64,000 nt of DNA from Gyromitra esculenta (lineage: Eukaryota > Ascomycota > Pezizomycetes > Pezizales > Discinaceae): assembly GCA_038503075.1 (NCBI GenBank), contig JBCAML010000014.1, forward strand, positions 1,116,001-1,180,000. The letters are read 5' to 3'. The notes beneath the pieces are model-generated. The model saw only the letters and a program-made list of their open reading frames with translations, was not told where the DNA came from and did no database searches. The translations under genes were made by a program, and so were the position numbers. Positions 18,894 to 63,300 of this stretch are shown in pieces. Position 1 is the stretch's first letter. Each line of letters opens with the position of its first letter.

Positions 18894-19890
18894 ATGTCTA
18901 TGCGGCTGGCCAAGAGCCTCTCGGGTACCCTCCCCCTCCTCATCAATTCCAACTTTTCCACCTCGTCTCGAAAACAACTGACTAACCCCGCATCACATCA
19001 CATCACACAGGCGCCGCCCGCCTCCGACCCTCCACCGCGCTTCTCCACCGCCAGCTGGCCCCCACTCTCACCGCCGTCCGCTTCCAATCCAACACCCCAG
19101 CCACCAACCCGGATCCGAAATCCAAGGCGCAATCGATCCTCGACAGCCTTCCCGGTAATTCACTCATCTCCAAGACTGCAATCCTGTCTTCGGCCGCCGG
19201 TGTCTCGATCTGGGCGATCTCCAATGAGCTCTATGTCGTCAACGAGGAAACCATTGTGGCCTTCTGCCTGCTGAGCACGTTCGCCGCTATCGGAAAATAC
19301 GGAGGTCCGCTGTATAAGCAGTGGGCTGAAACCCATGTTAACAAAATCAGGGATGTCTTGAATAGCGCGAGAGCGGACCACACTCAAGCTGTTAGGGACA
19401 GGATCGAGAGTGTGAACCAGATGGGGTCCGTGGTAGAGGTTACAAAGGATCTGTTTGCGGTTTCAAAGGTGTGTATCTTGCCGGTGCAAGAGCTGTTTTA
19501 AAATGCCGTTGTTCTGCCCACCCCCCCCCTACGCGCATAAAAATAATAATAATCTGATATCGGGTTTCGAAACTCCCAGGAAACCGCCCAGCTTGAGGCC
19601 AAGGCCTTCGAGCTCGAGCAACGGACAACTTTTGTTGCCGAAGCCAAGTCAGTCCTCGACTCATGGGTCCGCTACGAAGCCCAGGTTAAGCAGCGCCAGC
19701 AGAAGGAGCTCGCTGAGACCCTGATTGCCAAGGTCAAGAAGGAACTTGAGAACCCCAGCACTCTCAAGCAGATTCTGCAGCAGAGCGTACAGGACGTCGA
19801 GAGTATGTCTCCTCCACTCCTCCACCTAAGATATGTGGGAATTAGTTACTAATGTGACGAAACTCTATAGGAATTGTAGGCAAGGCTTAA
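18894..19890 (+). CDS. ATP4: Mitochondrial ATP synthase subunit b (subunit 4)
   Basis: Peripheral-stalk subunit of the F1Fo ATP synthase. Exons 18894-18924, 19011-19468, 19580-19802 and 19871-19890 give 243 aa, close to the yeast protein. The N-terminus is a basic presequence (MSMRLAKSLSG / AARLRPSTALLHRQLAP). Then come KAQSILDSLPGNSLISKTA, two short hydrophobic segments (VSIWAISNELYVV, IVAFCLLSTFAAIG), YGGPLYKQWAE and a long charged helix ending QSVQDVERIVGKA. The last exon is only 20 nt, and the frame sums exactly. Confidence 0.93.
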
Positions 19891-20436
19891 ATTTATAGTG
19901 CGGAAAAAAAACTTCATCTTTAACATATAACTATTTTTTTTCTCTTCCGATCCCCAGAAATATAGAATTTTTGTTCGTTGGTGTATATGCCGTGTCGCGT
20001 GCTACCGTGAATGGTACACACACAAAAAGGAACTTCTCTTATCTTCATGACAGAAGAAGATACAAATTATATTGCTTTTTTTTATTCTTATGATTACAGT
20101 AAGAGAAAAAGAAGCAATCGAGTGCAAGATGGTGAAGGAAGCAAAAATGTTTCATCGATTGAATAAAAGGAAAGAGAAAAACCCATCGACTCTATTCAGT
20201 CTGGCGTCCTTAAAATAAATGAAAGAAAAAAATGTACTTCCATCCCCGTTATCCTTTTTTTTTCCATTTACAGGGGAACGGGGAACCCTGGTAGCCATTG
20301 ATGGTGGTTTGTCTATCCTTTCGGCTCACTATCTTTCCACAAACAGCAATGCATTGAAAAGGAAATACACCGCTTTCCCCTCCCTCTCCCATACGCCAAA
20401 TACCAAACCTCTCAACTCAACCCCTCATAACCAAGT
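19891..20436. other. Intergenic, convergent ATP4/SDH2
   Basis: The 3' regions of two convergent genes with many A/T runs. No coding signal. Confidence 0.5.
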
Positions 20437-21515
20437 TTATGATCCAAAAGCCATCTCCTTCTTGATCTATAAACGTAAAACTAGTTAGCCTCACAGAAAA
20501 TCGCTCAACGAGTAAAACGGAAGAACATACGTTAGCAATGGCCAAACCAGGATTCAATCCCTTCGGGCAAGTCTTCGCGCAATTCATGATGGTATGACAT
20601 CTATACAGACTCATCTCATTCTCCAGCGCCATCTTCCTTTCCGCCTTAAATTCGTCTCTCGAGTCTGCGAGCCATCTGTAGCTCTGGAGGAGGACAGCTG
20701 GGCCAAGATAGTCCGAGGAATTCCACCTTCACGAAACGTCAGTACATTTCATCCGGTTACCACACATCTCGGCTAAAGACGTCGATGGAATTTTTGGAGG
20801 GGGGATACCAACCAATATGAAGGGCAAGAGGTAGAACAACAGGCACACAGAATACACTCATAGAGGCCATCAAGTTTCCTGCGTTCGGCAATAGATTGAC
20901 GATTCTCTCTGCCGTCCGGAGCGGGTGTCTTGCGCTGGAGATACGGCTTGATGGATTTATATTGCTTGTAGAAATGGGTCAAGTCCGGCACAAGATCCCT
21001 AACGACATATGTGTGAGGAAGCGGGTAGATCTTGACAGGTGCAGAAGAGGAAGTATCAATGCGGCCTATCCATATATCAGCCAACTCCACCCCATCCACC
21101 ACCCATCACTCGCCACCAAAAAAAACCCCCCAAAAGTAGAAAACCTACATAAGCAAGCCAGCGTATTGGTTCCCTGAATATTCATAGCACAGCTCCCACA
21201 AATCCCCTCTCTACAGCTCCGTCTGAACGTCAGTGTTGGATCAACCTCATTCTTGAGTCGAATCAGCGCATCCAGTATCATAGGCCCCGTCTGGTTCAGG
21301 TCCAGCTCATATGTCTGCATAAACGGCTTCTTCTCAGGCGTGTCTGGATTCCAGCGGTAGATTTCAAATTTCTTAATCTTTGGCTCCTTCGCGTCTGATG
21401 CGAGCGGGGCAGACTGGGAGGTTGCCACGGAAGCAAGGGTGCGAATTGATGTGCGTAGAGGCGAGGCGATCGAGACGCTGCGCAGAGCTGTGCGCGAGAG
21501 GAGGGAGGCGGACAT
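20437..21515 (-). CDS. SDH2: Succinate dehydrogenase iron-sulfur subunit
   Basis: Complex II subunit carrying three Fe-S clusters in the mitochondrial matrix arm. Exons 21515-21149, 21065-20813, 20726-20531 and 20466-20437 give 281 aa. Seen: a basic presequence ([20 protein letters not shown]), [18 protein letters not shown], the 2Fe-2S site ([12 protein letters not shown], then [11 protein letters not shown]), the second cysteine motif [16 protein letters not shown] and the third [18 protein letters not shown]. The end reads IKKEMAFGS. Intron 2 splits the first Trp of SYWWN. The donor of intron 1 (GTAGGT) and that of intron 2 (GTTGGT) are slightly non-consensus. A (CT)-rich run at 21575-21603 lies in the 5' leader. 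Confidence 0.95.
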
Positions 21516-22842
21516 TGTGGCTTTGTTGATTGTTTGCTCAATACCCGGTGGTGGTGTTATAGGTATCTTATTATCTCTCTTTCTTTCTCTCTCTCTCTCT
21601 GTCTTTCGGTTTGGGGATAAGAATTGGATATAGACAGGGATAGCCTGGCGAGAAGCTGATTTATGCCTTTATAGAAAACAAAGAGGGTTGGGGGCGAAGG
21701 CGGCGAGCGGCGACGGAGATGATGTCTTGAGCGGAAGCGGGTATTGGAGGGGCTCGTGATTGCCCACGGAAAACGAGACCTCGTTTCCCTTTCAACCTCG
21801 GGAATCGGGTTGTCGCTTAGCTAATCGTGGACACTTCCGGGGAAGAATCGCCCATTGCTAACGCCTTGCTGCTTATTGGCCGGAGTTGGCGCGATCGGAG
21901 CCGTGCAGCTGTCGTCACAACGCGCATATCGGCACGCTAACCTAACCATGGATCAGGATCTGAACTCTCTTTTGACTCCGAGTCCATTATCATGGCCTAT
22001 CACTCGGGTACTAACAGCGTGGACTTATTGAAGTGCTTATCCAGTGGATAATATTCCTAGCCCTTGGTACTGCATTAATCCTGTATCCCTACTCCTACAC
22101 CATCCACATTCTCGGTAATTCAAATTCTTATCCTCCTGCCAAAACAGACTAACTCAAACCCAAGAAGTGGTATCAAATCCCAGTCTATAAAAAGGACGCC
22201 TCTCTCTCAATATTGAGACAAATTAGGTTCGTGAGAGAAAACCCCCCACTACCGCCCTGTGATTTCTTCCTTGCGTGTGCGTGTATTCAAGCGAACAAAT
22301 AACCAACCAAGGAGCCGGAAAAGCTGTATACGCCATATTTCTAATAAAAACCGAAAAAAAACCCCGTAGACTCGCACAGCGAAGAATGCAAGAAAGGGAA
22401 AGAGAAGAAAAATGTACTCCCTTACACATTATAAATCACACAATACTAAAATTAGGAGTAAAGTCTTCTGTCATAGAACCCTTCCCCATGAGGAAAAAAA
22501 GGGGGGCGGTAGCCGAAAAACAGCAAGAACCTACTCGGCAAACTTTTTTTAATCCTAGATCCTGAGTGTAATTCCTCGCAGTATCTTTTCCAAAACCTAT
22601 ACTCCAGGTGAGGCATTGCCAAGGAGAGAGACAAACACAACGTTTGCTCTCTTCCCTGACTGTTTCTCTCATGTCAAATTTATCGGCCAATCCTTGGCCT
22701 GCCAAAAAAAAAAAAAGAGAAAAGAAAAAACTCCCCTCGAGTACACACATTTTTTGTTTATGCCCCTTGATAACCAGACAAAAAGAAAAAAGAAAAAAAA
22801 GAAAACAACGTACCGCTGAAAACTCCATTTTTACACACTGCG
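21516..22842. other. Intergenic SDH2 - TFA1
   Basis: About 1.3 kb. It contains the SDH2 upstream region with a polypyrimidine tract (21575-21603), a possible very small gene (21948-22190, listed separately) and purine/A-rich DNA downstream of TFA1. Confidence 0.45.
21948..22190 (+). CDS. Possible small membrane protein (46 aa), three exons
   Basis: A speculative model. ATG at 21948 opens MDQDLNSLLTP; introns at 21982-22033 (52 nt) and 22115-22164 (50 nt) both contain a perfect ACTAAC branch site close to an AG acceptor. Joining the exons gives 46 residues with one membrane segment (MLIQWIIFLALGTALIL) and a short tail ending SNPSL. The second intron looks very convincing; the first has a weak donor (GTCCAT). 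I do not recognise the family; the start is loosely reminiscent of OST4, but the match is too short to claim. Confidence 0.3.
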
Positions 22843-30224: not shown

Positions 30225-32801
30225 ATGTCTTTGAGAATAACAACATGGAATGGCGAGTTGTCAGATTTTTTATTTTTTATTTTTTATTTTTTATCTGGCT
30301 AACCCCCTTTAATTTTCTAGTGAATGGCATCAGGTAGGCAGCCCAAATAGAAATATCCGTACAGATAGAGCTGATCCATAGGACAAAGGAACCCGTTTGC
30401 ATATCACCCATGGTGCAACCAGAGAACATTTCAGGTATTCAGTTGAAGGTCCAGTCTTGAAACATCAAGTCATTAATGTTCACTACATGTACTGCTCCAG
30501 GCCATGTTCGATATTCTTGAGGCCGATATTGTCTGTATTCAGGAGCTTAAGATACAGAAAAAAGATCTTAAAGACGATATGGTTTTGGTCCCAGGATGGG
30601 ACTGCTTCTTCACATTTCCTAAGCACAAGAAAGGTAGAGACTCCGGATTCCGTTCCAAGGAGATAGAGCTAAGGTTAACCCTAAAACTACAGGATACAGT
30701 GGAATAGCAATATATACCCGCCAGTCCAAATGCAATCCTATCAAGGCTGAGGAAGGCCTCACCGGGATCCTTGAACCTCCAAACTCTACTGCGAAAAGCT
30801 ATATGGCTTTGCCAGCATCCGAGACAATCGGTGGTTATCCGGATCTCTTGCGGGAGGAAGCGATTCTCCTTGACAGTGAAGGTCGATGCCTCGTTTTAGA
30901 TTTCGGTGCATTTGTTCTCATTGGTTTATACTGTCCTGCACAAACGGACCCCGCTAGGGATGCGTTCCGAATCTCTTTCGCTGCGGCATTGAATCAACGA
31001 ATCCGAAAACTGATTGAAGTCAAGAAAAGGAGAGTAGTAGTAGTGGGTGATCTAAATATCGCGAGAGATGAGATCGATAGCGCGAAAGCAAAGGAGATAA
31101 TGGCAGATTGCAACCTAAGGGATTATAAAGATACACCTAATCGACAGATGCTCCATAGATTATTGGAGCCCCACGAATCAGGTATCATGGTTGATCTATG
31201 TCGAGAATTTTTTCCGAATAGACGTGGGATGTATACATGTAAGCAGAAATTTCGTGCACTTTAGTACCCCAAATTTCGAAAATTAATATTTATGTTGACT
31301 GGTACGCATAGGTTGGGAAGTATCAAAAAACGCAAGGTCTGTCCCATACCCAGAATTTATCGATAAGAATTTGTCTTGTTTTCCTAGTCGTGATCATGAG
31401 TCATCGTCAAAATACATCTTTTTGGCTGTTTAAATTCGTATCCTAATTCAAATGCTAACATGATGACTCCCTCATAGACCAGGAAACCATGGTAAATTTC
31501 TAGTTTATCAGCTTTATAAACACTTACTAAAGAATACCGTAGGGCAGCGGATTGATTATATACTATGCTCGTTAGACATGAAAAAGTGGTTTCGAGAAGC
31601 AAATATCCAGGAGGGCCTGATGGTATTGTTTTATCCACGCCTAAATGTTTCAATAAGCCTAATTTTTCCTTAGGGCTCCGACCACTGCCCGGTATATGGA
31701 GTTATAGGTGAAACAGTGATGGTAGAAGGTGATAAGAAGCATATTCTCGACGTTGTTAACCCACCCGGATTGTTTATCAACGGAAAACGCCAGTCATCTC
31801 AAATCTCGCCTCAGCTGAAACTTTCAGCTAAGATAAGTGGCGAGTATGCTGGGAGACAAAGCATACGAGATATGTTTCTAAAGGTCTCGGCCCAATCAGT
31901 ATCCACGCCTGGAGGACAGAAAAAATCGTTCTATATACGTCCCGCCTTGGAAAATGAAACTCAAAACCCTTGTCCGTCTGCCGAAATGCAGCCTATTACC
32001 ACTACATATAGTTTATCCGATGGTTTGACAAGTCCATTGACTACGGACACCGCACTTAGTGGTTCTGCTTCAGATGCAAAAGACTTATCAGCAACACCTC
32101 CAGCATCCCTTCAGTCGTGGGGGCCACCAGCGAAAAAACAAAAAACATCCAATTTTTTGGCAAAAACCCCATCGGATACCCAACGTAAGACATCGTCACG
32201 TGGTCAGAAAAATTTGATAGGATTCCTTCGAAAACCATCACCCCTGTCTGAGAAGTTGCCTTCACCGTCCTCCGGGCGTTCGCAGAGCCAGCAAGGCCGT
32301 AGTGTGCTGCCTGCGGATAGCAATGATCTATGTCAACAGGGCATCTACTCTTCATCTTCAGGTACGCTCGATGAAGCTTCACCTGCAAACGATGAAGTAT
32401 TACTAGAAACTTGTAGTGTTGTGGCGCACCAATCATATAGGGAAGGATCCTTTCCTTCTGGGGATCCTATAGTTACCAAAGAGAAATGGTCGCAATTATT
32501 CACAAAACCCGCAGCACCAAGATGCGAAGCACACGACGAGCCTTGTGTGCAACGCGTCACAAGAAAGCGGGGAGCAAATTTCGGCAGAGCGTTTTGGGCA
32601 TGCCCCAGGTTAGTACTTCTCCAAGTGTTGCCACTAGGTCCCTGCCCTCGCTTTCCGATACGTTAACCTGCCCTGGTGTTGTTTCATAGACCAATAGGCC
32701 CAGGAGGGTCCAGGGCTACGAATGGCCAAGCAGGAGAGTGGGCATGCAATTATTTTATATGGAGTAGCGATTGGAATGGGTTGCGTGGGGGTTCATCGTA
32801 A
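30225..32801 (+). CDS. APN2: AP endonuclease 2 (class II apurinic/apyrimidinic endonuclease)
   Basis: Base-excision repair nuclease of the exonuclease III family. Ten exons give 643 aa: 30225-30252, 30321-30333, 30389-30434, 30501-30633, 30693-31238, 31312-31336, 31478-31491, 31543-31622, 31674-32608, 32690-32801. Seen: RITTWNVNGIRNPF, MFDILEADIVCIQELKIQ, the YSGIAIYTR block, VVVVGDLNIARDEID, RIDYILCSLDM, and GSDHCPVYG with the catalytic Asp/His. A PCNA-binding-like QKNLIGFL lies in the disordered region (near residue 470). The C-terminal GRF zinc finger reads CEAHDEPCVQRVTRKRGANF, then GRAFWACPRPIGPGG and NYFIWSSDWNG. Intron 1 starts GCGAGT (GC-AG) and holds TTTTTTA heptamer repeats. APN2 marks one flank of the MAT locus. 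Confidence 0.93.
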
Positions 32802-34352: not shown

Positions 34353-36258
34353 CTATGGTCTAGGAGCAAGGTTGCATTTATATCGGAAGCGAATCTCATA
34401 TATAGGTAAGTTAGTTGCACTAGCTAAATATCTCTCCTCTGCGCTGTTGAGTTCGCCAAGTGCATTGAACACAGCTTCGCAAAGTCTTGCAGGAAACGTA
34501 TCGCTTTCAAGTTCTTTTTCGGGCTTAGGAAGTTTGGCGGCCTGCGAGGCTTTGTCGTTATTAGTGGTGTTAGCAGAGCGTTTCTTCGCAGATTTGTCGT
34601 CATCAGTGGTATCAGCAGAGCGTTTCTTCCCAGATTTGATGTCCTGGGGGGTAGCTGATTTGGCTTGCCCCTCCGAAGGTTTCGGTGCGTCTACTTGAGC
34701 TTTCTTGGTTTCGGTGACCTCTAGTGGTCTAGGTTGGACATAGCTACCGGCTTCCTTAAGTCTCAATGCGTCAAAAAACACACCAATCATTCTAAAAAAA
34801 TAAGTGGCATTAGTTTGGGACCCAAGAAAATAAGAGATAGGGGTTATTACTGCAAGTACTCAACTTCGAGTTCCGTTGAGGCATCTAGAGTATCATAGTA
34901 TTGAGTTTCTATGTCTGGCCAATGAGCGCTCAGCACAGTATTCGTGGAAATGCGTGTAGCCGTGGCATATGATAAGTATATGGCTTTAATAAGTCGCTGA
35001 ATTTCCTGTGTTGAGGCATCCATATGGTCAGAGACCCAGTAAGTGGTGTATAGAGGGGATATCATTTTTCTTGCCTCAAAGGGCGGGTGATCGAAGTATT
35101 GAAATGGGACAAGTGCTGCGATCTCTGCGACCTCGGAAATAAGGGCCCGCATTGTTTCGTTCACAGGCTGATTTCCCGCTCGCTCATCGTCCGTACTTCG
35201 CTCTTTTCTAATCCCTGAGAGTTGCTCCTTGTCCATACTCCGTTCTTTTCTCATCTTTGCGAGTTGCCCCTTGGATATAACCGCTTTGTCCACCATTATC
35301 TTGAAAGCGGGACGCATATTAAATGTATTGGAAAGGATACGGCGACGTGAATTGGCTAGTTCTGATCAGTACTCCGTGTCTGTTCTAGAATTTGAGATTA
35401 TACATACTGAACCAAGTAAGTAGCTTGTTGAAAGTTATCAACGGCCACAAACACAGCACGCGCCTTGCCTATCAGGAATGATTGTTAACGAGCTAGCATC
35501 AGATTCCATACTAACAAACTTAACGTACTTTTTTAATAGGATCCATATGGATTTCTTGACATCTGTACCATTCGCTTATAATGCGTAGTGTAGTTGCCGA
35601 GAGGCTAACCGGGCTGCTGACGGTGGGGTTTGCCTTATCTTTAGAGTTCTCGAGTTCTACTTGGATAGAATATGCGGCTCTGAGGTTCGCCACAGTATGT
35701 GTTCCTTCAAGGAATCCTGAAAATCCTGACCCGTTCCTGATCTTAGCATGCCAAATGGTTTCCTCGGTAAGCTCTTCCTCAATTTGCAGTTCATTGGCAA
35801 AAGTAGCAAAAATCATGAAATCATGTGAATCTGACATGACAGTTCTGACATCGTCACTATCTGCAGGAAGTGACGCCTGCAGAATATTGATCCTGTTGTT
35901 GAACGTACGAATATCTTGATTGAGTTTTGTTTGCAATTCCCAAAGCCACAGGACTTGCTTTCCAAAGTCATGTATCTTGACTAATGGGACAACCATTTCT
36001 GATCTCTCATGTTTCGGAACTTTGTTTACTTTAAGTCGCTTTAGGGTTTGAAGGGCAACGGCTGATACATATCTGACCTTGGCATCGCACATTGTTCCCG
36101 GAAGAATTGCAAGTTCATTTCTGATAGTAGCAAGATATTTCCCAACATGGAGTATAGCCTCGAGACGATATTCGATTTCGGCTGTTACAGATATTAGTAA
36201 AATTATGCTGAATTTTAGACAATATCCAAACCATACCTCTATCTGACGAAAGATCCAT
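34353..36258 (-). CDS. Homeodomain-like paralog, degenerate member of divergent pair
   Basis: Exons 36258-36237, 36181-35529, 35468-35408, 35361-34851 and 34791-34353 give 561 aa. No named family is recognised. It aligns over its length with the plus-strand gene at 36829-38695: EYRLEAILHVG with ERRAAILRIG, RNELAILPG with KNDLAYLPG, TEETIWHAK with TELSIAHAV, LLTWF with LFTWF, RRRIL with RRRVL, YLQMIGVFF with YLRAVGVLM. The first four introns have the same positions and phases (1,0,1,2), and exon 3 is 61 nt in both. Near residue 445 it has tandem basic repeats (KKRSADTTDDDKSAKKRSAN), probably nuclear localisation signals. The C-terminal ~45 residues (ARLCEAVFNALGELNS, AEERYLASATNLPIYEI) match helices 1-2 of the partner's homeodomain-like segment, but helix 3 lacks Trp48/Phe49. 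Expected role: nuclear partner protein (inference). Confidence 0.75.
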
Positions 36259-36828
36259 ATCAGCGGAAGATCGAATACCTAGTTCTCTGGTACAAGATTA
36301 GCACAAAAACTAAAAGTAAGTATTACTCTAAGGATCGGAAATAGTGGGAAACAACAGGCACATGAATACACGTATATATGCCTACGTTTCTTGTAGCGAA
36401 ATGATGAGTGATAGTTGAGTTAAAGAATGCGCAAAGCCCTAGATGTTTCGGGGTGTTTGAGAAAAGGTGGCAACTGCATGGGACAAAAGAGAGCGGGAGA
36501 TTGGACATATCCTATGAAATGTGCATCTCATAGTATAAAACATGCACCTAGCCTCCCAAAAAGCGTTAGCCCCGTTTTCCATTCTATGGACCATGCATCG
36601 GAAAGTGGCGATTACATGTACTACATGTACGATCTTTATTTTATGTCTGCTACGTTTCCATCACCAGTGTATAATCCCTCCTGCTCCTCACTCCAAAATT
36701 TCTCCAACACAATTTGGTATAATAGTTACCTTATCCCGCACCGCACCAAATCAAAACACCCTATCTTCTATAAAAAAAAGTTACCCTATAATCACAGAAT
36801 AGTACTCCTGCAACGGAATTGGCTCACT
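36259..36828. promoter_or_regulatory. Divergent promoter region of the paralog pair
   Basis: 570 bp between two start codons pointing away from each other. It contains two TACATGTA palindromes in tandem (36613-36620 and 36622-36629). A frame at 36427-36891 crosses it but has no conserved content and overlaps the start of the plus gene. Confidence 0.55.
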
Positions 36829-38695
36829 ATGTTCGAACCGCCTCGTAGTAAGTCCATCCGTCTACTGGCTTTATTTTTTATAATTTCTTAACTGATTCCA
36901 CGTAGTAAACGAAGAAGAACGTCGTGCAGCCATCCTTCGGATAGGACACACCCTCATCGAGCTCAAAAACGACTTGGCTTATCTTCCAGGTGGGGTTCCA
37001 GACTCTAGAATCAGAAAAGTTATGCAATACTGCATCCCAATTTTGAAAGAATTTCAAGTAAAAACACTCAAACTCGAGTATGCAAACGAATGCCTTGATC
37101 TTTATCCTTTGGCGTGTCTCTATAATTTCGGAGTACAGATTATAGCCCTGAGGGAAACTCAGACCAGGCTTAAGGTTGATATTCATCACTTCAACCACGA
37201 GTTAAGGCTTATTCAAGCTGGGGCTCCGGAATATGTTGAGAATCTCGGGGTTATTCTGGCAGAGGCACATGAGTTCATTATCTTTGCTACAATCGCAAAC
37301 TGTATTCACCCGGCTTGGGATCTCACCGAACTTTCAATTGCTCATGCAGTAAAAAAGGCTCAAGGATCGCAATTCTTGAAAGAAGCCTCGCATGTGGTTT
37401 CGATTCTTAAGGCTGCATTTTCTATCCAGGAGGAAGAACTCGCGGGATCCAGGACTTCGGGGCCCAGAAGTACCCACACCATAAGCGACGCAATTATTCC
37501 TCCACAAACTGCTTTTATTGTTGCTAGAGACTGGTATAGAAGTTATGCGCTCTCGATGTCTAGCCCCGAGAAGGTGAGTTGGACTTGTTAACTATATTTA
37601 ATAAAAAGAAGTTAATCATTAGCAGGAGATTCGTCTGCGGGCTCAACTACCGATCTTACCTTTTCGCCGTCTCTTCACCTGGTTTAGTATGTAATCCCAG
37701 AAAATATAATTACCAGGTCGATTCTAATAAGAAAACAGTTAACGCTCGGCGACGCGTTCTAGTAGGCACCCCAAAAATTGGTCCTGAATTAAAGGAACTT
37801 ACGGGTGGTGTAATTGCCAGAATAAGGTTTGACCCCATCAAAAACAGCAATGGCACGTCTACAGAAAGAGCGTGGGGAAATCCATCTCCGAATGATGGTT
37901 TAACTTCGGATCCCACGGCCAACGGAGATGGGGAACCCAACTGGGAAGAACCTATAACCTTATTAATTAATAGTTTCCTCATTGAGCTTGGAGAATGGCC
38001 GGCATTAATCCAGGTCAGAGAATTTCCTATTCGTCCAACCATCCAAATTAAGTCACCCATCCATTTCGAGTTCCAGATAACCGGTGAAGAGGGCACTGCC
38101 ATTAATAGGGTTCAGCGAATCTTAAAAGTGCTCTATGGCTCATATAAAACAACTGCTTACTGTTGTCTGGAAATTGTACAACGTGCCCATTGGCTGGACG
38201 TGGGCAAGAAACGTGCGTATGCAATACGAGCAAAACGAGAAATCGAAAAGAATTATCTGCGGTATTATACCTTTCCAGAAGTTGTTTATGAAAAGGTTGT
38301 TAAGTTGACTGAGTTTCCAGTGCTGTTGGTGTTCTTATGGCAACCCAAAGGCTTAATAAAGAGTTCTTCACGGACCAGAGAGTATCCAGGAGAAATCCAA
38401 CTATAAAGCCTATACACAACCCTTTTCGTTGCGACCTTCTGGATATCATTTTCGAGTTTTGCAAAGATCCCAACGTGGCAGAAGAAGAATGTCTGACTGA
38501 AATCACTGGCATGAATATCAATCAGGTTCATTCCTGGTGTAAGCTCTTTTTATTATTATTTTGAAGTCCTTGGAGCTAATTGATTAAGTTTTATATCGCC
38601 GCAATGTCTATTATCGACCAGAACGTGTGGAATTCAAAACACCCCCTCCCAGCCCCCCGACGAAGCCTAGATCCAAATTTTTTTCACGGGTCTGA
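36829..38695 (+). CDS. Homeodomain-like protein, plus-strand member of divergent pair
   Basis: Exons 36829-36847, 36906-37573, 37626-37686, 37739-38261, 38321-38538 and 38589-38695 give 531 aa. The N-terminal ~420 residues are shared with the minus paralog and with no family I know. Residues ~449-507 fit a homeodomain without gaps: LLDIIFEFCKDPNVAEEECL, then TEITGMNINQVHSWFLYRRN. With W496 as position 48, L464=16, F468=20, L482=34, M488=40, V493=45, F497=49 and R501=53 all match. Position 51, normally Asn, is Tyr499. The last intron (50 nt, phase 1) splits the Phe49 codon; without it the frame would end in LFLLLF. A short basic, proline-rich tail follows (TPPPSPPTKPRSKFF). The acceptor of exon 4 (GAAAACAG) was picked to restore the ARRRVL match. 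Likely a nuclear regulator; DNA binding is unproven. Confidence 0.75.
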
Positions 38696-39595: not shown

Positions 39596-41277
39596 CTACT
39601 CCTTCCTTCCCTTCCCTTTTTCATCTCTTGGTTTCGACTCAAAATCCAACTAAACTATGAGCACAGTCCTCAAATCCACTTCACGTAAAACAGAAAGATA
39701 GCCACATACCTGATTCCCATTATAATATTTCCTCTCTGGCTCTCTTCTCTCACCCTCATCCCGTTGGTCATACAACGTCCTTATCCTCCCATTTGCAGAG
39801 TTTGTTCTACTCATCGGCAACCCACCTGCTGTGCTAGGTCTACTCTGCACAGACGTCCTTGGGGGAGCAGGAGTTGGAGCCGCTGGAGCCGCTGCCGGCG
39901 TTATTGGCGGTGCGGGCGGTTCCGTAGGATATCCAACACCTAATACGGTGGTGACGGCACCGTAAACCATGCTATAAGCTTTTGATAATAGCCCCATCTC
40001 ATTGGACGCACCGCCGCCGCGGTAGGCTGTAGTATAGGACGGTGTAGGTATGAGGACCAAGGTAGCCGTAGGGGACAAGCCAAGTTCTACTAATGATGCA
40101 TTCTCGTCGGAGATAGAGAGTGGCTTATTTGGCAACGGAGCAAGAATCTGTAAGAATATGTACAGGTGATCGCTGTCGCCCCGGTTGTCGTCGAGCCAAG
40201 CACGCACGTCGGTTCCGAGGATAGACTCGGAGGGAAATTTCGCCTTGAGGCTTGAGCCATCGAGAAGACGGAACGAGATTGCAGTTTCTTTTGTGGCTGG
40301 GCGGATCGGAGTGTTTTCTTTTGAGCTTGAAGGGACGCTGGTAGTTTCTTCAAGCGCCTGTTTGCGTTTTGCTTCGCGTTGGCGTCGCTCGATTCTGTCG
40401 TTTTCGAGGAGACGAAGGACGCGCTGGCGCTCTTCTTGAGCGGCGAGTTGTCGCTTGCGTTGTTGTTCAAGGTAGGTCATGTTACTGGAGCGCCCAGCGG
40501 GGTCTGGAGTTGTAGAGGGGCGGCGGGCAAGGCGGCGTTCGCGTTCTTCTTTTTCCTCGGCGGCACGCTTTTGTTCGAAGCGAGCCTTACGTTCTTCGTA
40601 GACAACATTGCGGTCGCTAGGGTCGGCGGCGGCGGTGGAGGAGGATGGTACGGATGAAGATGATGCTGAGGAGGAAGAGACACGTGTTGGCACGGGTCCT
40701 TCTGGTGCTGAAGGGTTTTGGTGTTCGGGTGCCTCAGTGACGGGCTGTTCAATGGGAATTGGGGTTTTCTTTATCGCTTTAACGAATTCTTCCTCAGATG
40801 CACCAGCTGTAATGTTCACTGCCAGTGCTCCGTTTCTTCAATGGCAGGGTTTAGCTTGTATTGCTGCAGCTGTAAGTGTAGAAAAGGAACCTACTTGATG
40901 ATTACTAGATAGGGCACAGCTTGTATTGGGCAGAAGGCAGCCAGGAAACCAGCTTCAACAGAGCCTGCCTGAAGCCGAAGAAGTACCAGCGAACTTTTCA
41001 CAATAGAGACGACCTAGATTTCGTTCCGATTAGGTTTTTATTCCCAGGATAGGCAAGGACAAGCTCACATCAGGGACTTGCAGGTACACATCCTCCCATC
41101 TCAAGCTCTCTTCACTATCATCTGTCACAGGCACATGTAGCTGTCAGCTTCCAACCACAGCAGCTCAACATGCGCTAACACACCAGTAATGAAGCAAGCC
41201 AGCGATCGGTGCAAGTTGATTGAATCACCGATGGCTTTTTCGATGGGGCCTGGATGAAAGATGCTTGGGTCGGACAT
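39596..41277 (-). CDS. UBX-domain protein (UBXN4/UBXD2-like) with N-terminal thioredoxin-like domain
   Basis: Cdc48/p97 cofactor family, implicated in ER-associated protein quality control. Exons 41277-41184, 41121-41069, 41013-40895, 40835-39710 and 39649-39596 give 481 aa. N-terminal thioredoxin-like region: GPIEKAIGDSINLHRSLACF, TDDSEESLRWEDVYL, LLRLQAGSVEAGFLAAF, YLVIIKNGALAVNITAGAS. A Ser/Pro linker and a charged coiled-coil region (EERKARFEQKRAAEEKEERE, QQRKRQLAAQEERQRVLRLL) follow, then the UBX domain at residues ~270-345 (ETAISFRLLDGSSLKAKFP, GLSPTATLVLIP). The end YYNGNQ/LDFESKPRDEKG fits fungal family members. It is divergent from SHY1 by 257 bp. Exact orthology among yeast UBX proteins is uncertain. 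Confidence 0.85.
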
Positions 41278-41534
41278 GGGATGATGTTGCTGGTTGTCTA
41301 TGGTTCTGGAGGGATTTACCTTGCAGAACACCGATAAGCAAGGCCATGGGTGGGTTTACACACTTGAGCATTTGGCGATCCTTTCCCCGCCACAGTTGCG
41401 GCTCTCGACTGTTGGCACATCTGCCCCGCCACCTGCAGCTGGCGAAGCTTGGCTCTGACTTCATTTTCCCAGCTGCAGTAATCTCAGTCCAGATATTCCA
41501 AAAACTCTGGAAATACCTCTCAAGAAATCCTACG
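41278..41534. promoter_or_regulatory. Shared divergent promoter region UBX gene/SHY1
   Basis: 257 bp between diverging start codons. No specific element is recognised. Confidence 0.5.
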
Positions 41535-42578
41535 ATGGGCTGGCCACTGCTCCGCTCCCTAAAACCAATATTTTCACCTAAAAGGCTTCAATTCCGCCCC
41601 CCCGCCATCCCACTCCAGCGTCGTCTCTATGCCAATTCCCCTGCTGATGATCCGAATTTCACCTCCATCCTCGATCTACCCCCAAAGCTCATCCGCTCTG
41701 GCCGCAAAAAACATGGTCCAGGCCTCATCATCCTCGCTGCAATCCCAATCACAGCTTTCGCTCTCGGTACCTGGCAAGTGAAACGGCTGGAATGGAAAAC
41801 CGCCCTCATGGACAAATACGAAGACCGACTCGTCCGTGAACCACTCCCATTGCCCCCCGTCATCAACACCAACCACATCGATGAATTCGACTACCGCCGT
41901 GTCCTCGCTACAGGTCGCTTCCGACACGACCAAGAAATGCTCATTGGCCCGCGTGTCCGTGAGGGCGACAACGGATACCAGGTTGTAACCCCACTAGAAC
42001 GGCCGGACGCGAGCACAGTGCTGGTATCGAGGGGGTGGATCGCGAAGGATAAGAAGGAGCACAAATCTCGGGCTCCCGAAGCGTTACCGAGAGGCGACGT
42101 CACGGTGCAGGGATTGCTGCGTAGTCCGTGGAAGAAGAATATGTTTACGCCAGATAACCGCCCCGAGAAGGGTGAATTTTACTTCCCAGATGTGGAAGGG
42201 ATGGCGAGATTAGTGGGGGCCCAGCCAGTATGGATCGAAGAGACGACGGGTGCGTTGTGATACTTTCCATTTCCCCCCTCTTTCTCACTGGTAAGGGGTA
42301 CCAACGATCGTATGGACAGATCCGGATTATATGGTTGCTATGGGTAACCAAGCGAAAGGCATCCCTATCGCGAGAGCTGCAGAGGTCAATATTAGGAATA
42401 ATCATATGCAGTATATAGTTACATGGTATGAACTCTTTTCCCCTAGGTCTTATGTCTCAATTTAACCCACGATACTAGGTATGGCCTCTCCGCTGCCACA
42501 GCGGTAATGTTCTACATCCTTGTTAAGCGGCCTCCCCCGAACATTACCAAGAGAGTGCGGCAATCCAGCGAATGGTAG
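41535..42578 (+). CDS. SHY1: SURF1-family cytochrome c oxidase assembly protein
   Basis: Inner-membrane assembly factor for complex IV (Cox1 maturation). Exons 41535-42249, 42320-42425 and 42479-42578 give 306 aa. Seen: a mitochondrial presequence (MGWPLLRSLKPIFSPKRLQF), a first membrane segment at GLIILAAIPITAFALGTWQV with the family motif GTWQVKRLEWK, DYRRVLATGRFRHDQEMLIG, GYQVVTPLER, VLVSRGWIAKD, MARLVGAQPVW and HMQYIVTWYGLSAATAVMFY as the second membrane segment. The gene could start earlier in frame (the frame is open to 41220), but only the ATG at 41535 gives a typical presequence. Confidence 0.92.
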
Positions 42579-42764
42579 CAGTTTCTACTTTGCCGCGGAA
42601 CAGAAGAGGGGCCATAGCCGATTGATTTTTATGATCTGGTTGAAAGCCATAGTTCGTCCTCCTAGTTTGCACGGTATGTATATTACATGTACCTTGATTC
42701 TACTACCAACTCACAAATTAGGTGTGGGTGATGTATAAAGCACAGTCTCTTTCTTTTGTAATAG

Positions 42765-43002
42765 TACTACGGGTGTCGGGGAAATTCTGATGACAGGTGG
42801 TGGTGCAGCTCTTTTCTTGGGACTCAAACTCGCTTGAACTTCATAGCTCTACTAACTGACTTTAACCAATGTCTAATACATTGAATTTATCGCCTCTTAC
42901 CAGTTTTATTAGGCCTTTCGAAGAGTTGTGGAGTGGGGAGAAGACTAGCAGTTCTTACTTGCACCGCCACCTGTCATCAGACTTTCCCCTACGCCTGTAG
43001 TA
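42765..43002 (+). mobile_element. MITE-like element, family A copy 1
   Basis: Terminal inverted repeats of about 41 bp (42767-42807 and 42960-43000) differ at five positions; the core is CTGATGACAGGTGG. The element is flanked by TA on each side (TA-CTAC ... GTAG-TA), as expected for a Tc1/mariner-type insertion. The interior (CTCAAACTCGCTTGAACTTC, TTATTAGGCCTTTCGAAGAG) recurs in inverted orientation at 47351-47575. Non-coding. Confidence 0.8.
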
Positions 43003-43009
43003 CTTGGGA

Positions 43010-43044
43010 TGTAGGGGTACATCTGTCGACAGGTGGCGGTGCTT
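43010..43044 (+). repeat. Partial terminal repeat of family A
   Basis: The sequence GTAGGGGTACATCTGTCGAC then AGGTGGCGGTGCT matches the family A terminal repeat and starts just outside the right end of copy 1. No matching second end was found, so this looks like a solo or truncated end. Confidence 0.55.
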
Positions 43045-46251: not shown

Positions 46252-46291
46252 GTTCACCGTAAGTGAGTTGAGGTTCTCAGGGAGGAGAGAT

Positions 46292-46414
46292 GTATTCGAT
46301 AGTTTGTTATTAACCACTCGAGAAGATCTCAGGAAGGATTAAAGTATTCGATAATTTGTTATTAGCTACTTGAGGGGATTGTAGTATTCGATGGTTTGTT
46401 ATTAACCACTCGAG
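46292..46414 (-). repeat. Three direct repeats upstream of MAT1-2-1
   Basis: Three imperfect 31-bp copies start at 46292, 46344 and 46384, each opening GTATTCGAT then AGTTTGTTATTAACCACTCG or a close variant. They lie 40-165 bp upstream of the preferred MAT1-2-1 start codon, so they are in its promoter or leader. The alternative upstream ATG (46317) is inside the first copy. Confidence 0.85.
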
Positions 46415-60331: not shown

Positions 60332-63300
60332 ATGGCATACACCGGCGCGTCGCGAAATGTGGATATGAGCAGGTTCGTGGGATCTCTCTAGGCGTATCCT
60401 GTGTTTTGGAGATGTCTCGAAAGAAAGTTGGAGCTAATGGCGAATTAATTTGATTTCTCCCCAATAGATCTGAATCGGACCTCTCAATCAACATCAAGAA
60501 AGCTACTAATATCGGTATAATAACATTCTCTTCCTTGATACCTTTCACCGGGGGCACAACGTAAGCTAACCTAGATATTTGGCGTACAGAGGAAACCGCC
60601 CCTAAACGTAAGTCGCACTTCTAGCCACAACACTTAGGAATTCAGACGCTGAGAGATATTTGGGGATTTTTTTTTACAGGGAAGCATGTCCGGTCCTGCA
60701 TCGTCTACACCTGGGATCACAAATCGTCGACCTCGTTCTGGTCTGGCATGAAAGTGTAAACCACCACCACCTTCCCCCTAATCACCGAGGTCTGAACTCG
60801 CTGACACGGACAGGCAACCTATTATGGCGGATGAGGTCCAGACCTTTAAAGCCCTGATCTGCATCCACAAAGTGTTGCAGGAAGGCCATCCGGTCACAAT
60901 CCGAGAAGCACAGGCCCACACCGGCTGGCTGGAATCACTGACTAGAGGGATTGTAGGAGAAGGATTACGGGGTACGGCAGTATCATTCGGAAATGCCAAT
61001 CATCTAGAGGAGCAGCTGACTCCAACATCAGGTTATGGACCTTTGATTCGGGAATACGTCTATTTCCTTCTGGCCAAGCTTGCGTTCCATAGACATCATC
61101 CGGAATTTAACGGTTAGTGTGTGATCGAAGTGTAGTTTGTTCCGGGGAGGCTCACTTTGGTTTATAGCTAATATCGGTGGCAGGTGTTTTCGATTATGAG
61201 GAGTACATCAGTCTGAAAACGATCAATGATCCTAATGAAGGGTAGGGGTTTAAAATTATATGTAATCTTTTGTAATCTTTTTTTGGCTGACTGGTTACAG
61301 ATATGAGACTATTTCCGACTTGATGAACCTCCAAAACCAGATTGAAACATTCCAGAAACTCGTGTTTTCGCACTTCCGACATGGTGTTAATAATGAGTGT
61401 CGTATCTCTGCTCTCGTACCACTTGTTCAGGAAAGTTATGGTATTTACAAGTTTATCACGAGCATGCTGAGGGCTATGCATCAAAGCACTGGTGACGACG
61501 ACGCACTTGCGCCACTGCGGGTTCTGTACGATGGCCAGCATCACCGTCTAGTCCGCTTCTACTACGAATGCTCGAACCTCCGGTACCTGACCAGCTTGAT
61601 CACCGTACCTAAGCTCCCGCAGGATCCTCCGAATCTGCTCAGCGAAGACGAAGCACCTCCGGCTCTTCCCCGCCGCCCGGTCGAACCACCGATCCCGGAG
61701 CCGACTCCTACCCCTACCCCTGTGCAAACAGTCAGCCAGCCGGAGCCGGAGCCGATCTCGGATTTCTGGTCGAACGACCAATTGCAGCGACAGCAGCAGG
61801 CGTATGAAGCTGAGCAAAGACGACTCCAAGAGCAAATGGAGGCTGAGCAGAGGCAGCAACAGATGATGGCTATGCAGCAGCAACAACAGTTTGAAGAGAT
61901 GCAGAGGCAGCAAATGGAGCAGCAGCGATTGGCGCAAGAGCAGTTGATGAGGGACCAGATGCAACGACAAGCGCAAGGGCATGTTGCGGAATTGGAAAGG
62001 CAATTGTTGGAATATAAGGGACAACATGACAATCATTTGCTGTTGCTCGAGTCGTATGATCAGGTATTTTGTGATGGTAATTTAGCGCCCGGATTAAGCT
62101 GATAGTGTTTCAGAAAGTTAAAGCTTTAGAGAGTGAAATTGTCAATCTTCAGTCGAATGCTCATCAACAGCTCGCATCTAAGGACGATCTTATCAGATCG
62201 CTGCAAGGTATTACCTTCTCAGCTAGAGTACTTGGGTTTGTCCCTTTGTGCTAACTTGTAACAGAGCAAGTTAATATGTGGAAGAGCAAGTACGAGGCAT
62301 TGGCGAAGCTTTATTCTCAGCTTCGACACGAACACTTGGAGTTGCTTGGAAAGTTCAAACAGATCCAGCTCAAGGCTTCATCTGCACAAGAGGCAATTGA
62401 GAGACGAGATAAATTGGAGAGGGAGATGAAATCTAAGAACCTAGAGTTGGCTGATATGATCCGGGAGAGAGATCGTGCTTTGTACGATCTAGATCGTGTC
62501 AAGGGGGTAAATTTAATCTTGGATTTGTCATTTTGTGGACATGAGCGCTGATTCATGACGCAGACCCAAAAAGAAGAGGTCGACAAGGTCAGGCGAGAAC
62601 TTCGATTCGCGCAGGAAAAGGCCGAAAACAACGAGAAATCTAAGGGTACCGAGCTGTCGGCTTTGCTCTCTCGCCATAACCGAGAAATAGCGAATTTGGA
62701 AGAGTTGCTGCGTATCAAGCAGAGGGCTCTAGACGAAGCGCAGTCGAGATTCGGTGATAGGGATAGCGATATGGAGAGACGCCTACGGGAGAAGGAAGAG
62801 GAACTCGAGATCTTTAAAGCTGGCATGGACCAAACCCTTATGGACCTTAATCACATGAGACTGGTACGATCAAACATCGCATTTTTAACTAGTGACATAG
62901 ATCTAACTGTTACGTTTAGCATAGCAACGAGACCGATCATATTCTGGAGGCGCAACTTGACGAGATACTGTTGGATCAATTGAAGAAATTGACAGAGATC
63001 ATCGGTATGAGATCAGTATGCCTATCTTATCATGAAGCTCGCTGACAGTGTATCAAATAGATTCCGTGCTGCAGAGTGGTGTTCAGCGAGTGGACGATGC
63101 TTTGTATGAGCTTGAATCTCCTATGAACGCAGGAAACCAAAACGCATCACCTGGGTATCTTCTTTCTCAAGTCGAAAAGGCTCAGCTCAGCGCCACGGAA
63201 TTCGCCACCCAGTTCAACAACTTCGTCGTAGATGGCCCCAACAGCACCCAATCCCAGATCATCAAAACACTTCACGTCTTTGCAGGTGCCATCGCAGATG

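Follow-up and report, generated by a model that had tools for sequence, protein, structure and literature searches.

TALE-class homeodomain proteins act at mating-type (MAT) loci both in yeasts, as MATalpha2, and in basidiomycetes, as HD1, and the basidiomycete pair joins one TALE-type protein (HD1) to one of non-TALE type (HD2), with allele-variable N-termini. To our knowledge, a homeodomain class at a mating locus of Pezizomycotina is new. Within the Pezizales, MAT1-1-10 and MAT1-1-11 have been described from Morchella and Verpa as mating genes without a known function, their domains being given as MEME motifs only (PMC9318749, PMC10745113). Here, we analyzed 64,000 nucleotides of Gyromitra esculenta (contig JBCAML010000014.1, positions 1,116,001 to 1,180,000; hereafter the window), in which APN2, MAT1-2-1 and SLA2 make up a classic ascomycete mating region. 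Next to MAT1-2-1 lie two divergent genes, A and B, arranged as head-to-head duplicates, whose products are probably TALE homeodomain transcription factors linked to MAT and belonging to MAT1-1-10, a family of the Pezizales.

36258-34353, minus strand: gene A, 559 aa; exons 36258-36237, 36181-35529, 35468-35408, 35355-34851 and 34791-34353; stop at 34353.
36829-38695, plus strand: gene B, MAT1-1-10 homologue, 531 aa; exons 36829-36847, 36906-37573, 37626-37686, 37739-38261, 38321-38538 and 38589-38695; stop at 38695.
36259..36828, no strand: promoter common to the two divergent genes, 570 bp from ATG to ATG; 40.7% GC; TACATGTA palindrome at 36613 and again at 36622.

The gene models were built from open frames, splice sites and alignment, without transcripts. 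Gene A comprises five exons and four introns (55, 60, 52 and 59 nt) in a single open frame, and gene B six exons and five introns, the fifth of which is absent from A; all nine introns are of the GT..AG type and 50-60 nt long. Four introns stand at aligned positions in the two genes with the same phases (1, 0, 1 and 2), and exon 3 measures 61 nt in each. Alignment of the two proteins gave 191 bits (E 2e-58, 28% identity over 432 aa) as compared to 26.6 bits for the best of 100 shuffles of B. An earlier sequence-only reading of this DNA had proposed two genes diverging from 570 bp, their paralogy, their common introns and their location between APN2 and MAT1-2-1, all of which our analysis bears out, both genes being intact and multi-exon; a GRF zinc finger marks APN2, and the spliced MAT1-2-1 protein matches HMG_box at 2.8e-16. 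At four-fold sites, A and B differ in 44 of 65 cases (0.68, with 0.74 expected at saturation). Silent sites are thus near saturation while the protein is still conserved, which implies purifying selection.

Searching 5.8 billion clustered proteins, from which 7997 candidates were scored, we obtained a single match to B, the deposited MAT1-1-10 protein of Morchella rufobrunnea (P0001; 37% identity over 91%, E 1.2e-86). None of 7996 candidates matched A alone at E<=1, and a profile of A, B and P0001 again returned P0001 only among 7997 candidates. These homologue searches require shared 5-residue words and did not return MAT1-1-10 proteins that the literature names, so that further MAT1-1-10 or MAT1-1-11 relatives may exist. 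Judged by its sequence, B is a member of the MAT1-1-10 family; the two genes had been called unrecognised, which is only partly right, as this family has a name. Pairwise scores of 295 bits (B with P0001), 191 bits (A with B) and 162 bits (A with P0001) place A far from both others, indicating either a duplication older than the Morchella split or a faster evolution of A. Wide occurrence at unrelated loci had been named as a finding that would speak against a mating role; in its own 47.1-Mb genome the family was found at this locus only, with nothing else at E<1 in searches with A, B and P0001 (one extra match of P0001 at 2.19). Our literature search did not find "MAT1-1-10" together with "homeodomain" or "homeobox"; the founding Mycologia paper lay outside this search and may hold a remark on domains.

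Comparison to known protein structures and domain families makes it almost certain that both A and B carry an internal TALE homeodomain.

Residues 201-253 (35603-35529, 35468-35408, 35355-35333), minus strand: TALE homeodomain of gene A, WF|TNSRRR; HHalign probability 88.9 against four TALE homeodomains (A alone).
Residues 204-257 (37496-37573, 37626-37686, 37739-37761), plus strand: TALE homeodomain of gene B, WF|INARRR; HHalign probability 96.5 (B alone).

Against the PDB, the A/B/P0001 profile gave 12 matches, the best one ungapped over 54 columns; 11 were TALE homeodomains (TGIF2LX, PKNOX1, TGIF1 and Meis1/2; best E 2e-5), matched within profile positions 203-260, and the remaining one a coat protein (0.72). 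After removal of B from the profile, the same 11 TALE proteins came first among 16 matches (best E 0.0031), followed by five tubulin acetyltransferases at E >1, and B alone found 11 TALE proteins among 19 matches (residues 204-263, best E 0.0034). B alone also matched Pfam Homeobox_KN (9.3e-6; 25.9 bits over two stretches, with a cutoff of 24 bits). When aligned to the four TALE domains by HHalign, the family segment reached a probability of 97.7, the maximum in 200 column shuffles being 8.5, and P0001 alone reached 92.2. Individually, TGIF2LX, TGIF1, PKNOX1 and a TALE gene from elsewhere in the G. esculenta genome scored 95.7-97.2, as opposed to 4.4 for S. cerevisiae alpha2.

The loop that joins helices 1 and 2 has the three additional residues of the TALE class, and the family aligns to TGIF and PKNOX ungapped over 53-54 columns; in the 53-residue segments, the Trp residues of helices 1 and 3 stand as far apart as in TGIF/PKNOX, these three loop residues included. 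The contact motif WFxNxRRR is invariant in the three sequences, as WFTNSRRR (A), WFINARRR (B) and WFCNGRRR (P0001). TALE proteins of the TGIF, PKNOX and Meis types and of the fungal PAH5 type thus share homeodomain length, ungapped alignment and motif with A and B, whereas the N-terminal region of A and B differs from theirs. Intron 3 cuts the recognition helix straight after WF in both genes, so that the homeodomain would be missed in unspliced frames. In the above-mentioned TALE gene of the same genome (C4:1529217-1529388), the helix 3 intron falls at a different codon. The sequence-only reading was therefore right that both proteins hold a homeodomain, although it relied on a weaker C-terminal segment and did not mention the internal, strongest one; its proposal of homeodomain genes at a Pezizomycotina MAT locus is supported, the relative being already a named MAT gene in morels. 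An alternative fragment alignment (A3) proved misaligned and was set aside.

Given this domain, A and B are very probably DNA-binding regulators, and sequence context tips the balance slightly towards a role in mating or sexual development. In the mechanism that we propose, an old local duplication would have produced the head-to-head pair, and A and B may be expressed together from their common 570-bp promoter. Both would contact DNA with the TALE domain, in which the WFxNxRRR motif is intact, and would pair through a helical N-terminal region. By analogy with TALE proteins at the MAT loci of yeasts and basidiomycetes, they might then act with MAT1-2-1 in mating-type-dependent transcription. 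An A-B heterodimer is a tentative and, on the whole, unlikely element of this scheme. Scanning of the 570-bp promoter showed that TGACA, the TALE core, is absent and that TAAT and HMG-type words are not enriched. The only enriched word was TACATGTA, at a level reached by none of 500 shuffles; it is common genome-wide. This palindrome has 26 sites in the window and 8253 in the genome, compared to 1432 for the reversed control word (~5.8-fold). As a further observation, exon 5 of gene A holds a 42-nt near-tandem duplication (34542-34625; 81%) that encodes a repeated Lys-Lys-Arg-Ser-Ala-(Asp/Asn)-Thr-Thr.

The published MAT1-1-10 of Morchella resembles B in its five introns and in its position between APN2 and SLA2 with an orientation opposite to MAT1-2-1 (PMC9318749). 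Gene A differs in having four introns and the same orientation as MAT1-2-1; three introns are reported for MAT1-1-10 of V. conica (PMC10745113). MAT1-1-10 is described as one copy per locus, unlike B with its divergent paralogue. In Morchella, it is expressed, and the third of its five introns is reported as never retained (PMC9318749); if the numbering matches that of B, this would be the intron inside the homeodomain recognition helix. As to A, it resembles MAT1-1-11 of Morchella and Verpa conica in being MAT-linked and of similar size, and V. conica MAT1-1-11 lies with MAT1-2-1 (PMC10745113). We translated 14 published primers, dropping stop-containing frames, and placed the peptides on A, B and P0001. 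None of the six MAT1-1-11 primers fell under 5% (lowest 35 of 200 shuffles), in what is a weak test, since seven of the eight MAT1-1-10 control primers failed as well: one, DELGD in P0001, outscored every one of the 200 shuffles, whereas for each of the remaining seven between 21 and 196 of 200 shuffles did as well. The paralogous MAT-flanking genes of Pyronema were set aside as counterparts of this pair, being too long and too alike (59% shared over 1005 aa; PMC3778014).

Several observations weigh against the assignment of A and B to MAT-linked TALE regulators of the MAT1-1-10 family. In heterothallic morels, the published MAT1-1-10 accompanies MAT1-1-1 in the MAT1-1 idiomorph, whereas B accompanies MAT1-2-1. 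The never-retained third intron uses alternative splice sites in some morels (PMC9318749), and in pilei of M. sextelata MAT1-1-10 transcription differs little between types (PMC9225556), which is unlike the expectation for a strict mating switch. Homeodomain position 50, typically Ile in TALE proteins, varies (Ile in B, Thr in A and Cys in P0001). In Pfam, full-length A alone had no match and its cut-out segment reached 0.062, while P0001 alone matched Homeobox_KN below cutoff (0.04) and its cut-out segment had no match. AlphaFold models were too poor to use and were rejected as evidence: the mean predicted local distance difference test score was 48.6 when P0001 was modelled with fragments from the window, and 46.7 when exon 2 of B was combined with exon 2 of A and with P0001. 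The homeodomain is supported by HHalign (97.7 as opposed to 8.5 when shuffled). For G. esculenta, moreover, the assignment is drawn from sequence throughout. In its favor, the sole relative found is a published MAT gene.

In the surroundings of the pair, the gene order is APN2, genes A and B, the UBX gene, SURF1/SHY1 and MAT1-2-1.

30638..32666, plus strand: APN2, 5' end outside the model; exonuclease/endonuclease domain (Exo_endo_phos 0.0072, below cutoff) and GRF zinc finger (Zn_ribbon_GRF 4.2e-6).
39653..40837, minus strand: UBX-domain gene, given as its open reading frame; UBX 2.7e-10.
41220..42257, plus strand: SHY1/SURF1 gene, of which the first open frame is given; SURF1 9.5e-46.
46251-45182, minus strand: MAT1-2-1, HMG box split by introns; Pfam HMG_box on the spliced protein.
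61266..62099, plus strand: SLA2, ANTH domain exon; ANTH 1.7e-31.

No alpha box was detected in the G. esculenta genome by a weak search, which fits a MAT1-2 strain; the strain may nevertheless be homothallic, because this kind of search likewise failed to pick up the HMG box of MAT1-2-1, which is split by introns. In a MAT1-2 strain, the MAT1-1-10 homologue beside MAT1-2-1 would mark a departure from the heterothallic morels. Homologues of SDH2 and ATP4 lie left of MAT on the APN2 side (18986-21668; Fer2_3 and Mt_ATP-synt_B), as they do at the morel locus (PMC6164635). The ATP4/SDH2 order is apparently unlike the published order in Morchella and Verpa, the intervening genes being identified only in part. 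Downstream of SURF1 we noted an inverted repeat (42763-43004; 45-nt arms, 89% complementary, spaced by 152 nt) with a further 32-nt arm beside it at 43011-43042 and, directly upstream of the MAT1-2-1 start, three overlapping copies of a 52-nt repeat (46270-46413; 71-79% to the first).

Among the alternatives, the one that survives best, although still unlikely, holds that A and B are passengers, homeodomain regulators of vegetative or general development caught in a recombination-suppressed MAT region. It would account for the transcription of MAT1-1-10 and MAT1-1-11 in ordinary mycelium on potato dextrose agar, for the suggested role of MAT1-1-10 in the asexual phase and for the movement of MAT1-1-11 between idiomorphs (PMC9318749), and the UBX and SURF1 genes do separate the pair from MAT1-2-1. 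However, the family is found at MAT in Morchella, Verpa and G. esculenta (PMC9318749, PMC10745113) and is confined to that locus in its own genome at E<1, as described above.

A direct descent from an ancestral MAT homeodomain, represented by MATalpha2 of budding yeasts and Pi of fission yeast and lost elsewhere in Pezizomycotina, is improbable. The TALE class itself agrees with such an origin, as MATalpha2 likewise is a TALE homeodomain protein at MAT. In yeast, alpha1 stands with alpha2, the same pairing as that of an alpha-box gene with the homeodomain relative in the Morchella idiomorph. There, the relative shares its idiomorph with the alpha-box gene MAT1-1-1 (PMC9318749), and the Pezizomycetes are an early-diverging lineage (PMC3778014). 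Nevertheless, generic TALE domains (95.7-97.2) resemble the family far more than does S. cerevisiae alpha2 (4.4), which stood for the ancestral type in this comparison, and one 53-residue domain is too little to settle ancestry.

The two remaining alternatives turn on the ends of the proteins.

38412..38650, plus strand: C-terminal non-TALE homeodomain-like segment of gene B, residues 455-517; Pfam Homeodomain 3.2e-4 at residues 464-501; DUX4/ZHX3 matches at E 0.11-0.28.
34356..34505, minus strand: C-terminal segment of gene A, aligning to the C-terminal domain of B; homeodomain undetectable.

The Pfam Homeodomain score of the B segment, 20.9 bits, lies just below the cutoff of 22.9 bits. In the PDB search with B alone, seven non-TALE homeodomains (six of the DUX4 type and one ZHX3) matched weakly within residues 455-517, the 19th match being unrelated. 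The C-terminal helix of B reads WFLYRR, with Tyr at the position of Asn51, and intron 5 separates the Trp from the Phe in this presumed recognition helix (HSW|FLYRR). A C-terminal homeodomain in A was rejected, its segment giving no PDB match at E<=10, and a three-sequence C-terminal profile of A, B and P0001 found no homeodomain (five of five matches unrelated). The claim that both proteins end in a homeodomain-like segment is thus retained for B, with its Homeobox_KN and Homeodomain matches, and dropped for A. In P0001, the Trp of the helix is apparently replaced (HTS for HSW). The deposited P0001 ends at the same point by an apparent read-through of intron 5, and its C-terminus may represent a retained-intron form; among the splice variants of MAT1-1-10, the one that keeps the fifth intron is reported to be the commonest (PMC9318749). 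That splicing of intron 5 switches a second homeodomain in B on or off is conceivable, no more. At the other end, the N-terminal ~180-190 residues rank with the best-conserved stretches when A, B and P0001 are compared, and form the longest conserved block, with 45 invariant columns across the first 180 residues of B.

This conservation could also mean that the N-terminal domain is the functional part, the homeodomains being remnants in decay that have lost DNA binding, as would fit the Tyr at Asn51 in the C-terminal segment of B, the failure to detect a homeodomain there in A or in the three-sequence profile, and the divergence of helices 1-2 of the internal domain (two invariant columns in B residues 211-240). 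We regard such decay as still less probable than direct descent, since WFxNxRRR is intact in three sequences despite near-saturated silent sites between A and B, and since residues 241-270 of B hold 10 invariant columns, equal to the best N-terminal block. A basidiomycete-like recognition pair, in which A and B from different nuclei would be active as a heterodimer only across alleles and so serve as a self/non-self test, is very improbable and not favoured: two homeodomain genes that diverge at MAT from a common promoter do reproduce the HD1/HD2 layout, as the sequence-only reading had pointed out, and B combines a TALE with a non-TALE homeodomain-like segment, but the likeness is one of layout only, as both internal domains are TALE, the genes are clear paralogues and, contrary to the variable N-termini mentioned there, the N-terminal half is conserved rather than hypervariable (in one strain, and in the three sequences compared). 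With their conserved N-termini, the two TALE paralogues look more like a duplicated regulator than an HD1/HD2 recognition pair.

Taken together, these results point to A and B as MAT-linked TALE regulators of the MAT1-1-10 family. A wider and rather unlikely extension of this model would be that the Pezizomycetes kept or regained homeodomain mating control, with MAT1-1-10 and its paralogue forming pairs once fertilisation has taken place, either mutually or with partners that the other nucleus supplies, B joining a TALE and a non-TALE half, and the splicing of intron 5 switching the second domain.

Our analysis suggests, from the comparison of three sequences, two of them from the window, that the MAT1-1-10 family consists of TALE homeodomain proteins and has a head-to-head paralogue, both of which are new. 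MAT1-1-10, until now a mating gene of unknown function in morels, cultivated species included (PMC9318749), would thereby become functionally testable, and a DNA-binding class beyond alpha-box and HMG proteins would be placed at a Pezizomycotina mating locus. In the systematic deletion reported for Podospora, no homeodomain gene was required for crozier formation (PMC3360767); should a homeodomain pair at MAT be active in Pezizales, the old question of a common control of croziers and clamps could be asked there. If homeodomain mating control proves true, the pair would give the ascomycetes their own counterpart of alpha2/a1 and HD1/HD2 regulation, within a subphylum believed to rely on alpha-box and HMG proteins only.

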